Shown here: piece by piece, positions 1,053-8,675 of the stretch | Layout of the letters: every line of letters starts with the position of its first letter | Position numbering within the stretch: the first letter of the stretch is position 1 | Assembly (NCBI GenBank): GCA_937899725.1 | Contig: CALCCA010000204.1 | Span: 1 to 64,000, forward strand | DNA from: an uncultured Halomicronema sp. | Lineage (GTDB): Bacteria; Cyanobacteriota; Cyanobacteriia; Phormidesmidales; Phormidesmidaceae | Length of the DNA: 64,000 bases | Direction of reading: 5' to 3' | Made by a program: the position numbers and the translations under genes | Notes under the pieces: generated by a model | Databases searched by the model: none | What the model saw: only the letters and a program-made list of their open reading frames with translations | Told to the model about the DNA's origin: nothing

Positions 1053-1742
1053 TCAAGCCAAGAGGCGACCGTCTGCTTCAACCGCTGGCGCTTGCACCAG
1101 GTAGCCGCAGCGATGCTCACCCTCCACGAGCCAGTGAGTGCGCTGCACCGTGCAATCAGGCAGCGCCAATTGAAACATCTCTAGCTCGTGGCCACAAACG
1201 CTGGGAAACGACTCGGCGATATGAGAAATGGCGCAGTTATATTCTGCAATAACGTAGCAGGGACCAGCCGCCGCCGACCCGTCACCCTCTGGCTGCACTT
1301 CTTGCCACTCCGCCATATACCCTTCTCGCTTGCGGAGTTTGACCAAGTGATCGACCCGATCCGTGATCGCTCCCTCGCCCATCTGCTTGCGATAGTCTTC
1401 GGCCTTACGCTGCCACTGCTTTTGCAGAATCGTGCCCACCTGATCTTGGCCCACGGTTTCGGCCAGGGTATCGAGCAGCGAAATCGCAAACTCGTCATAC
1501 TGGGCCGGAAAGCGATCGCGCCCTTTGCGGCTCAACCGGTAGAGATAGTTAGGACGACCCATCCCAGCCTGCTCGGCGCGATGCTCGATCAGGTCTTCCG
1601 CAATTAAATCTTTGAGATGTCGGCGAATCGCCTGGGGGCTAACGCCGAGGGATTCCGCCAACGCCTGGGCACCGGCCTCGCCCTGCTTCAACAAACTTTG
1701 CAGAATGTCTTCCTTAGTAGACGGCGGCTGTAGAGAAGTCAT
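1053..1742 (-). CDS. sufR: SufR, Fe-S-sensing transcriptional repressor of the suf operon
   Basis: This is a DeoR/ArsR-like winged-helix repressor that in cyanobacteria binds an Fe-S cluster and represses sufBCDS when clusters are sufficient. The helix-turn-helix is at about residues 14-48 (QALAESLGVSPQAIRRHLKDL). The C-terminal half carries the family cysteines in CYVIAEYNCAI, FPSVCGHELEMF, ALPDC and GEHRCGYLV. I chose the ATG at 1742 (MTSLQPPS), giving 229 residues, close to the family length; an in-frame GTG-type start 30 bases upstream is possible. It is divergent from ftrC-sufBCDS, and three palindromic operators fill the shared spacer, which suggests autoregulation as well as operon control. 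Confidence 0.95.
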   Translation of the reverse strand: MTSLQPPSTKEDILQSLLKQGEAGAQALAESLGVSPQAIRRHLKDLIAEDLIEHRAEQAGMGRPNYLYRLSRKGRDRFPAQYDEFAISLLDTLAETVGQDQVGTILQKQWQRKAEDYRKQMGEGAITDRVDHLVKLRKREGYMAEWQEVQPEGDGSAAAGPCYVIAEYNCAISHIAESFPSVCGHELEMFQLALPDCTVQRTHWLVEGEHRCGYLVQAPAVEADGRLLA

Positions 1743-1955
1743 TTTTGCAACCCAGTCAACGCTGACAGACACATCAAGTCAATGGCACACCCGAGTTCCA
1801 AGCACCTCGGCATCGCCCTGTAGCCGACTGCCGTCGCCGAACCGCGACCCAGCCATACCCACATTCAAGCCGTTCAACCGCCCAGCTCACACCAGCAAAT
1901 CACCTAGAGGCAAATCCCAGTAGCTGGCCCAGTCGGTTATCAAACCCCAATTTAA

Positions 1956-2086: not shown

Positions 2087-2446
2087 ATGCAAGATAATAC
2101 GACAACTCAAGGTACAGAAAAGAATTTAGAGCTGATGCGGAACTTTGCTCAGAGTTACGCCAAGCGCACAGGCACGTATTTCTGCTCTGACTTGGGCGTC
2201 ACCGCAGTGGTGCTAGAGGGCTTAGCGAAGCATAAAGATGACTTGGGTGCACCGCTCTGTCCCTGTCGCCATTACGAAGACAAAGAAGCGGAAGCCAAAG
2301 CCACCTATTGGAACTGCCCTTGCGTCCCAATGCAAGAGCGGCATGAATGTCACTGCATGTTGTTTTTGACTGAAGACAATCCCTTTGCCGGTGATCAGCA
2401 AGATATCTCCTTCGAAGAGATTCGCTCCGAAACCAACCAGTATTAA
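2087..2446 (+). CDS. ftrC: Ferredoxin-thioredoxin reductase catalytic (beta) subunit
   Basis: This is the catalytic subunit of FTR, which passes electrons from photosynthetic ferredoxin to thioredoxin through an Fe4S4 cluster next to a redox disulfide. The protein has 119 residues, typical of the family. The diagnostic cysteine motifs are LCPC, NCPC and CHC, with one further Cys in YFCSDLG. It is the first gene after the SufR operators and lies 90 bp before sufB, so it appears to be co-transcribed with the Fe-S assembly genes. The variable alpha subunit is not in the window. The ATG at 2087 is the only plausible start. Confidence 0.95.
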   Translation: MQDNTTTQGTEKNLELMRNFAQSYAKRTGTYFCSDLGVTAVVLEGLAKHKDDLGAPLCPCRHYEDKEAEAKATYWNCPCVPMQERHECHCMLFLTEDNPFAGDQQDISFEEIRSETNQY

Positions 2447-2536: not shown

Positions 2537-3973
2537 ATGACTGCCTCTGTTAAGTCTCTCGTTAGCCAGCCTTACAAGTACGGTTTCACGACGGATATCG
2601 AAGCCGACACCATTCCCCGTGGCCTGACTGAAGACACGGTGCGGCTGATTTCGGCCAAAAAGAATGAGCCCGAATTCATGCTGGAGTTTCGGCTCAAGGC
2701 CTATCGCAAATGGCTGACCATGACCGAGCCCGACTGGCCTAACGTCGGGTATCCGCCCATCAGCTATCAAGACATCATTTATTACTCCGCCCCCAAGCAA
2801 GAGAAGAAAAAGCTCGATAGCCTCGATGATGCCGACCCGGCGCTGCTGGAAACCTTTGAAAAGCTGGGTTTACCCCTCTCCGAGCAAAAGCGACTGGCGA
2901 ACGTCGCGGTTGATGCCGTCTTTGACAGCGTCTCCATTGGCACCACCTATAAAGAAAAGCTGGCCGAAGATGGCGTCATCTTCTGTTCCATTTCGGAAGC
3001 CTTGGAAGAGCATCCAGAGCTAATCGAAAAGTACTTGGGTACGGTGGTGCCGGTCGGTGATAACTACTTTGCGGCGCTGAACTCAGCAGTCTTCAGTGAC
3101 GGCTCCTTTGTGTTCATTCCCAAGAACACGAAGTGCCCGATGGATTTGTCCACCTATTTCCGCATCAACAACGGCGACTCGGGACAGTTTGAGCGGACGC
3201 TGATCATTGCCGAAGAAGGCAGTTCAGTTACCTATTTAGAAGGCTGCACGGCCCCCATGTATGACAGCAACCAGCTGCATGCCGCCGTAGTAGAGCTGGT
3301 GGCGCTCGACGATGCTGACATCAAATATTCCACCGTCCAAAACTGGTTTGCCGGTGACAAAGACGGCAAAGGCGGCATCTATAACTTTGTGACCAAGCGC
3401 GGTACTTGCCACAAAAACGCCAAGATTTCTTGGACGCAGGTCGAGACTGGCTCAGCCATTACTTGGAAGTATCCCAGTTGCGTGCTGCTGGGGGACAACT
3501 CGGTTGGGGAGTTTTACTCCGTCGCGCTAACCAACAACATGCAGCAGGCCGACACCGGCACCAAAATGGTGCACATCGGCAAAAACACCCGCAGCACCAT
3601 CGTGTCGAAGGGCATTTCGGCGGGCAAGTCCAAAAACAGCTATCGCGGCTTGGTGAAAATTGGGCCAAAGGCGGCAGGCGCGCGCAATTATTCCCAGTGC
3701 GACTCCATGCTGATTGGCGATACCTCCAACGCCAATACCTACCCCTACATCCAAGTCCAAAACAGCACTGCTCAGGTGGAGCACGAAGCCTCAACTTCCA
3801 AAATTGGGGAAGACCAGCTGTTCTACTTTGCGCAGCGGGGCATTTCCCCCGAAGATGCGGTATCGATGATCATCAGCGGCTTCTGCCGTCAGGTCTTTAA
3901 CGAGCTGCCGATGGAATTTGCCGCCGAGGCGGACAAGCTGATGGCCTTGAAGTTGGAAAACACCGTGGGTTAG
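2537..3973 (+). CDS. sufB: SufB, Fe-S cluster assembly scaffold
   Basis: This is a SUF scaffold component that forms SufBC2D and accepts sulfur from SufS to build Fe-S clusters in the cytoplasm. The start ATG at 2537 gives 478 residues beginning MTASVKSLV, as in cyanobacterial SufB. The frame is open from a TTG at 2474, but those extra 21 residues lack family character. Typical stretches are present: [40 protein letters not shown] and the C-terminal [16 protein letters not shown]. The stop is four bases from the next gene, a retropepsin-like protease, which separates sufB from sufC. Confidence 0.97.
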
Positions 3974-3977
3974 AGCC

Positions 3978-4400
3978 ATGATGGGCATCACCTACGCCGA
4001 TATTGAACTCATCAGAGGCGACGATCTGGCTTTGGAGCGAGCGCGCTACCTCAAACCCAGTCAAGTTAGTCGTGTCCAAGTCAGCGCGCTCGTCGATAGT
4101 GGGGCTTCAATGCTGGCAATTTCTCGCTCTTTAGCCCGTCTGCTCAACCTCAACAAAGTGGATGAGGTACAAACAGAATTGGCCCATGGTGAGGTGATGC
4201 AGGCAGAGGTTGTCGGGCCGATTGAGGTGCGGTTTGCTAACCGTCGGGCATCAGTAGATGCCGTTGTGATTGAGGCGGAGACTGAAGTTTTGCTGGGCGC
4301 AATTCCGATGCAGGGCATGGACGTGATGATTGACCCTAAATGCGAGCGGTTGATTGTCAACCCAGACAGTCCCAATCAAGCCCGCATGTTACTGAAATGA
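3978..4400 (+). CDS. Retropepsin-like (clan AA) aspartic protease-fold protein inside the suf operon
   Basis: This 140-residue single-domain protein has the retropepsin signature: a VSALVDSGAS active-site loop (D-S-G-A) at about residues 34-43 and a hydrophobic-hydrophobic-Gly motif VLLGAIPMQGMD at about residues 103-114. Such single-domain proteins act as dimers in clan AA, with one catalytic Asp from each chain. It starts four bases after sufB (ATGATG, so 3978 or 3981) and ends 69 bases before sufC, so it is almost certainly translated from the suf transcript. There is no signal peptide or membrane segment. Substrate and role are unknown, and a toxin-antitoxin-like or housekeeping role cannot be excluded. 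The family call is good; the function is not assigned. Confidence 0.85.
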   Translation: MMGITYADIELIRGDDLALERARYLKPSQVSRVQVSALVDSGASMLAISRSLARLLNLNKVDEVQTELAHGEVMQAEVVGPIEVRFANRRASVDAVVIEAETEVLLGAIPMQGMDVMIDPKCERLIVNPDSPNQARMLLK

Positions 4401-4469
4401 GCTTTTTCCAGCGTTTGACTGTGTATTGATTTGATTTTGACGTAGTTAGGATTGCTAGCCCCGAAGACC

Positions 4470-5258
4470 ATGATTAACGAGAACAGTAAAGTAATTTTGT
4501 CCGTGCGTGACCTGCAGGCCACCGTCGACGGCACGACGATCCTAAAGGGGGTCAATCTGGAAGTAAAGGCGGGAGAAGTGCATGCCATCATGGGGCTCAA
4601 CGGCTCTGGCAAGAGTACTTTCTCCAAAGTGCTGGCAGGCCATCCCGATTATGAAGTGACCGGCGGTGAGATTCAGTTTCAGGGGGCCGATATCTCGGAG
4701 CTAGAACCCCACGATCGCGCCACTGCCGGGATCTTTCTGGCTTTTCAATATCCGTTAGAAATTCCCGGCGTCAGCAATCGCGACTTTTTGCGGGTGGCCT
4801 TTAACGCCCATCGCAAGTCGCGCGGCGAAGACGAGATGGATGTTTTTGACTTTGACGACCTGATCGAAGAAAAGCTAGCAGTCGTCAAGATGGACGCCGC
4901 ATTTTTGGATCGCAGCGTCAACGAGGGCTTCTCAGGCGGTGAGAAAAAGCGCAACGAAATTCTACAAATGGCGCTGCTAGAGCCGTCTCTGGCAATTCTT
5001 GACGAGACGGATTCGGGCCTCGACATTGACGCGCTGAAAACAGTCGCAGGCGGCGTCAATCAGCTGGCTAATGCCGACAATGCGGTGGTGATGATCACCC
5101 ACTACCAGCGGCTGCTCAACTACATCGTGCCGGACTATGTGCACGTCATGGCCGATGGGCGCATCATCACGACGGGCGGTAAAGAACTCGCCGAACGTTT
5201 AGAAGCCGAAGGCTACGAAGATATCATGGCGGCGTACACAGCAGGGGCGGCAGTGTAA
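4470..5258 (+). CDS. sufC: SufC, ABC-type ATPase of Fe-S cluster assembly
   Basis: This is the cytosolic ATPase of the SufBC2D scaffold. It shows Walker [11 protein letters not shown]-loop FQYP, the ABC signature SGGEKKRNE and Walker [13 protein letters not shown], followed by the switch-region histidine in VVMITHYQR. The ATG at 4470 ([10 protein letters not shown]) gives 262 residues, near the family norm; an upstream in-frame start at 4452 adds only six residues. Its stop overlaps the sufD start by one base (TAATG), indicating translational coupling. Confidence 0.97.
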
Positions 5259-6601
5259 TGGCAATTCCGGTTTCTAGCATCGACCCACCCACGCAGCTAA
5301 CCAAACGCGAGCAGCGAGCCGCGTATCTCAAAGCGTTGCTCGGCACCCTGCAGGCCAACGTTCCCGCAGCCGTGGCCCTAGAGGACTTGCGCGCTCAAGC
5401 GGCGGCGATCGCCCATGAGCACACCTTCCCCACCACACGGGACGAAGACTGGCGCTTTACCGATTTAAGCGCCATGCTGTCGGTGCCCTTTCAGGCCATG
5501 CCAGCGGCCCCTGAGGTGGATGCAGGAGTCTTAGCAGCCATTGAGATGCCCGAGGCGATCGCCCGCATCGTGCTGGTCAATGGTCAGTTCAGCGCCGAGC
5601 TCTCCGATCTGGCGCAACTGCCTGCGGGTGTTGTCGTAGGCAACCTGGCGGCGCTGCAAACGGGGGCCATGGCTGACCAACTAACAGCTCGGCTAGCGCA
5701 ATCGAGCGGCGGGCATGACCTGTTCACCGCGCTCAATACCGTGGGCTTTCCAGCGGCGGCGGTCGTTTGGGTATCGCGTCATCAAGTGATTGAGCAACCG
5801 ATTCACGTGGTTTACCTGTCGGTAGATGGCGGCACTCCCACCGTCACGAGTCCGCGGTGTGTGGTCGTCGCGGAAACGGGTAGTGCCCTTACCTTGGTGG
5901 AAGACTTTTACGGGACTCACAACCAGGCTCAGTTCAACAACAGCGTGACGGAGGTGTGGGCTGATGAGAATGCCCAAGTGACCCATGTGCGGCTGCAGCG
6001 CGAAGGGCTCGGCACCTTTCACATTGGCAAGACGGCCATCACCCAGGGGCGCGATAGTCGCTACACCATCATTCCGGTGAGCTTGGGAGCGCAGGTCTCT
6101 CGCCACAACTTAGAGATGCATCAGACAGGCCCCCAAACCGATACCAATCTGTACGGGTTGGCGGCGATCTCCCAGTCGCAACTGGCTGACACCCACAGTC
6201 TGATCGCCATGAATCATCCTCACGGTACAGCGGAACAGCTGCACAAATGCATCGTGGATGATGCCGCCCATACGGTATTTAACGGCAAGGTCTGGGTGCC
6301 TCACAACGCGCAGTTGACCAACACGAGCCAGCTCAACCGCAACCTGCTGCTCTCGAACAAAGCGCGGGTCGATACCAAGCCAGAATTGGACATTGTGGCC
6401 GACAATGTAAAGTGCGCCCACGGGGCGACGGTCAGTCAACTCGATGCCAATGAGGTGTTTTATCTGCAAAGTCGGGGCATTAGTGCTGAGGCGGCGCAGC
6501 GACTGTTGATTTATGGCTTTGCGATGGACATTATCGATCGCATTCCGGTTTCCTCCTTACAAGAGACGCTGATGGCCACGGTGACCCAGCGAACGCAGTA
6601 G
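5258..6601 (+). CDS. sufD: SufD, Fe-S cluster assembly scaffold partner
   Basis: This is the SufB-related subunit of the SufBC2D complex, needed for iron acquisition. It has 447 residues. The N-terminal helical region contains TRDEDWRFTDLS, a motif typical of SufD (RDE.WRYT). The C-terminal beta-helix includes the conserved CAHGATVSQLDANEVFYLQSRGIS region. The ATG overlaps the sufC stop by one base. sufS follows after 40 bases. Confidence 0.96.
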   Translation: MAIPVSSIDPPTQLTKREQRAAYLKALLGTLQANVPAAVALEDLRAQAAAIAHEHTFPTTRDEDWRFTDLSAMLSVPFQAMPAAPEVDAGVLAAIEMPEAIARIVLVNGQFSAELSDLAQLPAGVVVGNLAALQTGAMADQLTARLAQSSGGHDLFTALNTVGFPAAAVVWVSRHQVIEQPIHVVYLSVDGGTPTVTSPRCVVVAETGSALTLVEDFYGTHNQAQFNNSVTEVWADENAQVTHVRLQREGLGTFHIGKTAITQGRDSRYTIIPVSLGAQVSRHNLEMHQTGPQTDTNLYGLAAISQSQLADTHSLIAMNHPHGTAEQLHKCIVDDAAHTVFNGKVWVPHNAQLTNTSQLNRNLLLSNKARVDTKPELDIVADNVKCAHGATVSQLDANEVFYLQSRGISAEAAQRLLIYGFAMDIIDRIPVSSLQETLMATVTQRTQ

Positions 6602-6641: not shown

Positions 6642-7919
6642 ATGCTTCCTATGACTCTGGCTCAAGAACTCACCCTCGCCACTAAGGTTCGTGACGACTT
6701 TCCGATTCTTCATCAGGAAGTCAACGGCCATCCGTTGGTGTATTTTGACAATGCCGCCACGTCACAAAAGCCAAAGGCAGTGCTGGAGAGCATTCGCCAT
6801 TATTACGCCGCCGACAACGCCAACGTGCACCGGGGGGTACATGCGCTGAGTGCGCGGGCGACCGATGCCTACGAGGGCGCCCGAGACAAGATTGCGGCCT
6901 TCGTCAACGCGGCGTCACGGGATGAAATCGTCTTCACTCGCAATGCCAGCGAAGCCATCAATCTGGTGGCCTACGCTTGGGGCATGAACACGCTGCAGGC
7001 GGGGGATGAAATCATTCTGTCGGTGATGGAACACCACAGTAATTTGGTGCCCTGGCAGTTTGTCGCCCAGCGGACAGGCGCGGTGCTGAAGTTCGTCGGG
7101 CTGACAGAGACCCACGAGCTGGATATGGATGAGCTGCGATCGCACCTTTCCGACCAAACCAAACTGATCACGTTGAACCACGTTTCCAACACGCTGGGCT
7201 GCATTAACCCGGTGGAAGATATTGTGGCGCTGGCTCAGCGCTATGGCGCGAAGGTGCTGATCGACGCCTGCCAGAGCACACCTCACATGCCGTTGGATGT
7301 GCAGGCATTAGGCTGTGACTGGCTGGTCGCCTCCGGCCATAAGATGTGCGGCCCGACCGGGGCCGGCTTCCTCTACGGCAAGCTGGATTTGCTGAAAGCC
7401 ATGCCACCCTTTTTGGGCGGCGGTGAAATGATTGCCGATGTGTTTTTAGATCACTCCACCTATGCGGAGCTGCCCCACAAGTTTGAAGCGGGGACGCCAG
7501 CCATTTGTGAGGCCATCACCCTGGGGGCAGCGGTGGATTATTTAAACGCGGTGGGCATGGATAAGATTGCTGATTATGAGCATGAGCTGACCCAGTACCT
7601 CTATCAGCAAATCAATCAAATTCCCCACATCACGCTCTATGGCCCTCAACCGCAGGCAGACGGCAGCGGTCGGGCCTCGTTGGCCACCTTCACGGTGGAT
7701 GGCGTGCATGCTCAAGATCTCTCGACGCTGCTAGATCAATCGGGCATTGCGGTGCGATCGGGCCATCACTGCACACAACCCCTACACCGAATTTTGGGCG
7801 TGACTTCCACAGCGCGGGCGAGCCTGTATTTCTACAACACCCGTGAGGAAATTGATATTTTCATCGCGGCGCTGAAGGACACGATCGACTTTTTCGCTAG
7901 CGTGTTTGACGACGATTGA
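6642..7919 (+). CDS. sufS: SufS, group II cysteine desulfurase
   Basis: This PLP enzyme converts cysteine to alanine and delivers persulfide sulfur to the SufBCD scaffold. The PLP lysine is in [11 protein letters not shown] and the catalytic cysteine in [11 protein letters not shown], typical of group II enzymes. The N-terminal stretch [11 protein letters not shown] and the VHRGVHALS motif are diagnostic. The protein has 425 residues from the ATG at 6642; a second ATG at 6651 is also possible. It is the last gene of the operon. No SufE gene is visible nearby. Confidence 0.96.
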
Positions 7920-8001: not shown

Positions 8002-8675
8002 TTACCGCAATTGATCGAGCCCCCAATTTTGCGGATTGGCGTGGATGTAGGCGCGAACGTTGTCCAATTGTTGCTGGGTGCGGATGATGCGATCGTGATA
8101 ATTGCGTTGCCAGACCGGGGTACCAGGGGAACGCCGCAGGCGGTTGATTTGCCGGGTGGAAACGGATTTGTAATTGCCGATAATTGCGCCGATGGATCCG
8201 GGTGGGGGGCCGTTGGGGCGATTGGTGCCGGGTTTCACCGATCGTAGGGGCGAGGCATTGTCGCCAGATCCATCTTGCTTCAATCCAGAAAGTTGCTCCG
8301 ACAATGCCTCGCCCCTACCGGGTGTGGGTGGTTCACAAAATGCCGCGCCCCTACCGGATGTCGGCGATGCCCCCTCCGCATCATCTGCAATGGATATATC
8401 GGGCGCTTCAACAATTTCGATGATGCCGTGAACGTGGTTGGGCATCACCACAAAGGCATCCAACCGGATGTGAACAAAATGGTGCATCAACCGATGCCAT
8501 ACGCCTGGGCGGCGCGACCCGCATCATTCAACACCATGCCCTCATCTCGGATTTCCCCAAACAGATGCTGTCGCTGGTGGGCGCAAATGGTCACGAAATA
8601 ATCGCCAGGTAAGACGTAATCATACTGCCGAAGACGGGTTGACCGCCGTCGATGAATCGCTGGGTTGTAGGGCAC
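8002..8675 (-). pseudogene. REP-associated tyrosine transposase (RAYT, IS200-like), frameshifted
   Basis: Two overlapping reading frames together rebuild one RAYT. The 5' part (8675 to about 8490) gives MPYNPAIHRRRSTRLRQYDY...GRAAQA and then a stop. The 3' part (about 8500 to 8002) carries the HUH motif VVMPNHVHGII and the C-terminal YIHANPQNW signature. A one-base loss near 8495-8505 breaks the frame: restoring one base gives AVWHRLMHHFVHIRLDAF, which fits the family exactly. Between the HUH motif and the C-terminal block lies a Gly/Pro-rich insertion of about 75 residues, encoded by REP-like palindromes (see 8245-8317). The gene is likely dead, but could supply clues to the REP family it once mobilised. 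Confidence 0.85.
8245..8317. repeat. REP-like 19-bp inverted repeat pair
   Basis: TAGGGGCGAGGCATTGTCG (8245-8263) and its perfect complement (8299-8317) are separated by 35 bp. A third, shorter copy of the outer part (GCGCCCCTACCGG) lies at about 8345-8357. The pair is inside the broken RAYT gene. RAYT enzymes are known to act on REP palindromes, so this is a plausible substrate copy. Confidence 0.8.

Follow-up and report, generated by a model that had tools for sequence, protein, structure and literature searches.

Between sufB and sufC of an uncultured Halomicronema sp. lies a gene for a retropepsin-like aspartic protease, here called AP, and the reading to which we give a probability of roughly 55% is that it is an old passenger of the sufBCDS operon, selected but dispensable, co-expressed with suf and probably acting on a substrate other than a Suf protein. 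The window analysed is the whole stretch of 64,000 nucleotides at positions 1 to 64,000 of contig CALCCA010000204.1. In oxygenic phototrophs Fe-S clusters are assembled mainly by Suf, whose post-transcriptional control is, to our knowledge, poorly understood. A selected protease gene in the suf operon is a testable candidate for such control. Even if AP is only a passenger, the locus shows that an optional gene can persist for very long in an essential operon, and it cautions against inferring function from operon membership alone. The open-licence literature yielded no earlier report of a conserved protease gene inside a sufBCDS operon, and the word ‘protease’ is absent from a review of cyanobacterial Fe-S metabolism (PMC7058544).

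The order of genes in the window is sufR/ftrB-sufB-AP-sufC-sufD-sufS (Table 1). The AP frame opens with an ATG at 3978, followed by a further in-frame ATG at 3981, and is separated by 4 nt from the sufB stop (3971-3973) and, at its other end, by 69 bp from the ATG of sufC. This agrees with the earlier note, which had described a 140-residue protein with a D-S-G-A loop placed four bases after sufB, and had taken sufB and sufC to be normally adjacent; in relatives lacking AP the gap between them is indeed mostly 24-280 bp, with other orphan ORFs in a minority. Same strand, tight spacing and a position shared by 24 genomes make AP a member of the suf operon in genomic terms, and since its orthologues elsewhere occupy this position too, its location is far from chance. 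The layout of the operon also suggests co-expression with suf, perhaps stoichiometric. Gene set, order and divergent sufR are those of the cyanobacterial sufR-sufBCDS operon of PMC7058544; the window differs in having an ftrB-like gene between sufR and sufB and a protease gene where the part of that review available describes nothing intervening between sufB and sufC. The ftrB-like gene occupies the same place in four relatives (L004, L006, L007, L008). The leader just ahead of sufC is probably its ribosome-binding region or a regulatory leader. Downstream of sufS an IS200-like (Y1_Tnp) transposase gene (8002-8675, minus strand) seems to be divided between two frames, which probably means that it is broken.

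Table 1. Features of the suf locus in the window (positions are those of the window)
Feature	Position	Strand	Assignment or remark
sufR, divergent repressor of the suf operon	1053-1772	-	TIGR02702
ftrB-like gene (ferredoxin-thioredoxin reductase catalytic chain), between sufR and sufB	2087-2446	+	PF02943
sufB, 479 aa	2534-3973	+	NCBIfam NF008773, TIGR01980
AP, suf-embedded retropepsin-like aspartic protease gene, 140 aa	3978-4400	+	D40-S41-G42-A43 loop, L105-L106-G107 motif
Dimorphic N-terminal helix segment, codons 11-36 of AP	4008-4085	+	Exchanged relative to the nearest relative, G006
Leader GACGTAGTTAGGATTGCTAG... / GACGTAGTTAGGATTGCTAGACCC, immediately 5' of sufC	4439-4469	+	Kept in relatives with and without AP (L039, L040, L041, L044)
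sufC, 262 aa	4470-5258	+	TIGR01978
sufD	5258-6601	+	TIGR01981
sufS	6642-7919	+	TIGR01979

The protein belongs to a known fold class. Its putative active-site loop, V39-D40-S41-G42-A43-S44, conforms to the D-[ST]-G-[AST] pattern of clan AA, and the second, hydrophobic-hydrophobic-Gly motif of that clan is present as L105-L106-G107, invariant in A3. Scores exceed the Pfam cut-offs for Asp_protease_2 (PF13650; 42.6 bits against a gathering threshold of 24.3) and gag-asp_proteas (PF13975; 40.3 against 28.2), and for NCBIfam TIGR03698 (clan_AA_DTGF) the 45.6 bits obtained are below the curated cut-off of 57.35. An AlphaFold2 model built with 37 sequences (mean pLDDT 89.4, pTM 0.82) aligns with retroviral proteases and Ddi1 at Z 10-11.7 over about 100 residues with an rmsd of about 2.6 (VIA-align). 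In Foldseek it finds at probability 1.00, as top match, a Rickettsia retropepsin-like enzyme, and profile searching of PDB sequences gives weak matches to Ddi1, retroviral-like aspartic protease 1 and ApRick. On the strength of the model a retropepsin fold can be predicted with confidence. Since each chain of 140 residues has a single catalytic motif, the sequence implies that AP would act as a homodimer with a shared active site.

With the clan AA retropepsin-like proteins (PF13650/PF13975, TIGR03698) AP has in common the D[ST]G loop, the hydrophobic-hydrophobic-Gly motif, single-domain size and the predicted retropepsin fold; unlike TIGR03698 members it has DSGA in place of DTGF and is located in a suf operon. 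Small bacterial retropepsin-like proteases already described include RimB of Pseudomonas (PMC11957791) and RloA (PMC12239564), both of which act on polyglutamate. RimB works with a partner enzyme, RimK, on whose product it acts (PMC11957791), and the RloA proteases are secreted and have signal peptides (PMC12239564). Neither has a suf link, in contrast to AP, and no rimK is among the identified genes adjoining AP. ApRick/APRc of Rickettsia conorii (PMC4140852; PDB 5c9b, 5c9d, 5c9f), the top Foldseek match, is a bacterial retropepsin-like enzyme of solved structure but with about 17% identity to AP, a different gene context and no suf link. The window's genome has another clan AA protease-like gene, distant (28%) and without suf link (L002 1501-1902, minus strand), which belongs to a widespread cyanobacterial subfamily.

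How might such a passenger function? AP would be a small endopeptidase of the retropepsin-like kind, located in the cytoplasm. Its transcript would be shared with sufB and arise from the promoter under SufR control (iron, redox, high light), and its translation would be coupled, from a start 4 nt past the sufB stop. Two chains would pair, their two D40 residues making one active site, and the predicted β-hairpin flaps would close over an extended peptide, so that a specific cellular protein, probably not a Suf component, is cut. A helix at residues 14-21, apparently swapped by recombination, is a possible patch for recognizing partner or substrate. As part of an operon that the cell cannot do without, the suf locus would offer a stable site with good expression, and the conserved flanks at sufB-sufC a route for gain or loss of the gene.

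Comparison of suf loci across cyanobacteria makes it plain that AP is not peculiar to this genome, an eventuality that the earlier note had raised: full-length sufB-linked copies are present in 24 genomes from four cyanobacterial orders. Within the window's own order 10 of 65 genomes have full-length orthologues, nine of them at sufB-sufC and one (G012) elsewhere; in addition, AP has an internal deletion in G009 and is cut by a contig end in G052. Relatives with a name are Halomicronema, Oscillatoria sp. CS-180 and a Leptolyngbya MAG; in the carrier Halomicronema sp. CCY15110 the active-site motif reads D-S-S. Within the window's family, orthologues in the corresponding position have 61-86% protein identity. 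AP is absent, with a short sufB-sufC gap of 118-152 bp, from G002 and G003, which are of the same genus as the window, and from G060. A class-wide sample of 390 genomes revealed sufB-linked AP in three more orders, represented by families f15, f24 and f17, and the counts from order-level searches with a check of the locus were 10 of 42 genomes for f15, 4 of 36 for f24 and 1 of 1 for f17. Several of the genomes compared are fragmentary MAGs. Matches with E <= 1e-36, plus G096, were mapped relative to suf.

Close copies also occur outside suf (G012, G333, G302, G380, G256, G270:C211 and one alphaproteobacterial MAG). The suf-linked copies fall into a single group of the AP tree, along with three non-suf copies (G380, G256 and the long-branch alphaproteobacterial one), and support for the split between this group and the other stand-alone copies is 97/79 (SH-aLRT/bootstrap). 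The alphaproteobacterial gene (L010 2003-2383) starts 3 nt past a GNAT gene and ends 12 nt ahead of an lpd-like gene, with a sucB-like gene upstream; these neighbors were identified by inspection, and the surroundings look like a 2-oxoglutarate dehydrogenase operon. On Synechocystis plasmids, pSYSA among them, a homologue with 39-40% identity lies antisense between cmr4 and cmr3 of a type III-B CRISPR operon (L142 3998-4378, L143 4001-4411); in PCC 7338 a Uma2-type gene is likewise nested, between cmr3 and cas10. The stand-alone copies, the alphaproteobacterial copy and the pSYSA homologue (about 40%) together argue that AP is not Suf-specific. An origin in phages was considered and set aside, as viral contigs and phage records held no homologue and there was no PHROG match, as was carriage by plasmids, for which the distant Synechocystis copies (37-41%) were all that was found.

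Has the gene been kept by selection? Pairwise Nei-Gojobori dN/dS, taken from pairs with unsaturated dS since dS is saturated in distant pairs, is 0.03-0.20 for AP, far from the value near 1 entertained beforehand, and 0.005-0.05 for SufB. An open frame together with D[ST]G and LLG is retained in 20 of the 24 copies; simulated neutral evolution leaves all three in place in 1.7% of cases at 0.2 substitutions per site, falling to about 0.15% at 0.35. Lineages that keep AP have therefore been selected to do so. That the insertion is instead neutral or decaying and without function, the alternative offered at the outset, finds some encouragement in a very patchy presence and in the damage, or reduction to a remnant, seen at about one in three of the known sites that have AP sequence. 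It is nonetheless very improbable, with dN/dS so low, 20 of 24 copies intact and the catalytic motifs conserved over distances at which neutral frames break, and for the clade it can be regarded as largely refuted.

Loss and decay in place are frequent all the same. Nine loci have an inactivated, truncated or remnant AP (G009, G096, G126, G340, G304, G247, G185, G004, G229), including premature stops in G126 and G340, some of which may be sequencing errors, disappearance of D[ST]G in G004, G229 and G340, the deletion in G009 and a truncation in G096. The remnants in G304, G247 and G185, of 15-28 residues, score 29-45 bits; the highest score among 20 shuffled sets was 22.3. When mapped on a tree of SufB from 90 genomes, which is a gene tree, the presence of AP needs 18 changes; over 1000 shuffles the mean is 24.9 and the minimum 19. 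Its distribution is thus only weakly bound to clades, and a single ancestral gain would require 27 losses. Transfer of AP between lineages is likely, because in G080 (f17) AP groups with f15 copies (90/94) and SufB groups, at low support, with f24 genomes, and because silent-site divergence between G142 and G080 is lower in AP than in SufB.

With proteolysis of a Suf component, the function that the earlier note had put forward as an example, these facts sit uneasily. A protease dedicated to Suf would be made with SufB and would trim or degrade SufB, SufD, SufR or misassembled scaffold under iron or oxidative stress. Its attraction is that the sufB-sufC position is held in four orders and that the catalytic motifs are under selection, and RimB acting on the RimK product (PMC11957791) is a precedent for a link between protease and partner. 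However, of the sampled relatives whose sufB and sufC are intact, most have a degraded AP or none, which is not the distribution of a core Suf component, and it is lost frequently with SufB nearly unchanged. SufB of G329, which has an intact AP, differs from that of G247, left with a 15-residue remnant, by two residues, both conservative, and SufB of G142 (with AP) differs from that of G264 (100-bp gap) at nine positions. Comparison of SufB in sister pairs showed clade-level differences and no recurring change that would suggest dependence on AP. Coevolving SufB residues were looked for and rejected, no column following AP beyond shared ancestry. Non-suf copies of AP have branch lengths similar to those at suf. 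A dedicated Suf regulator is accordingly doubtful in our estimation, and the fuller proposal is unlikely, namely that some cyanobacteria make AP along with the SufBCD scaffold, use it under iron or oxidative stress to cut a suf product and so regulate Fe-S assembly, and gain and lose it as a module by recombination at sufB-sufC. What stands of the original interpretation is a retropepsin-like protein in the suf operon that is not unique and is selected; the step from co-location to Suf proteolysis does not, and proteolytic control of Suf is possible but not favored.

A further consideration comes from the N-terminal helix. Codons 11-36 encode one of two main types of segment, GDDLAL-x-R-x-GYL or (G/A)ADL(I/V)L-x-(Q/E)EGYL, with D15 always accompanied by R21 and A15 by Q21 or E21; one type is found in L003, L004, L091, L092, L097 and L100 and the other at the remaining loci, and the types are intermixed on the tree. 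Between the window's genome (G000) and G006, 38 of 78 nt differ in these codons as against 30 of 312 in the remainder of AP (p = 1.4e-13), and identity is 98.8% for SufB, 98.5% for SufC and 96% for SufD. In the model the segment forms a helix inserted past the first strand. If that helix is a recognition surface, its exchange while the Suf proteins remained 96-99% identical makes a Suf protein unlikely as its partner, a point that also tells against a Suf regulator; the dimorphism may instead be structural.

For the passenger reading, dispensability rests on degraded and remnant copies, on motif loss, on the clean absence from G002 and G003 and on the near-unchanged SufB. Against that reading it can be said that the closest subfamily is mostly at this one site in four orders, as a Suf link would also predict, and that patchiness could mean that Suf control is needed in some habitats only. 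Relatives with natural in-place deletions of AP and near-identical SufB are ready comparison strains.

The junction between sufB and sufC receives other genes as well. In f15, f24 and f17 a further gene is often found in the gap, for a 206-aa protein weakly similar to PD-(D/E)XK/Cas4, and sometimes another, for a 340-aa protein (MPNPLFSRYSQGENRV...) with a marginal match of the AlwI restriction-enzyme type; one or both are present in L092, L096, L098, L100, L102, L103, L104, L107 and L109, and the 206-aa gene occupies the gap without AP in G087, G147, G333, G224, G122, G247 and G322. It is conceivable that AP and these genes form an island of the defence or conflict type, directed against invaders such as phages. 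Outside the window's family, 12 of 15 carriers have AP together with genes of this sort at the junction, a homologue of AP is inside the Synechocystis type III-B CRISPR operon, and a dimorphic segment and patchy distribution would suit a conflict gene. Yet in the window's family AP is alone in the gap, the PD_DExK and AlwI-type library matches are marginal, AP has no phage homologue, and most genomes tested have several members of the 206-aa family (up to 11), the suf-linked ones scoring highest, as expected of a lineage kept at the junction. All told, we consider a defence cassette rather improbable. Membership of a known defence system was also looked for and dismissed, PADLOC giving a match at E 0.035 only. 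Where the junction is empty (G002, G003, G022, G264, G319, G380 and others), strong hairpins or palindromic repeats are frequent, and these may be repeat elements or processing signals.
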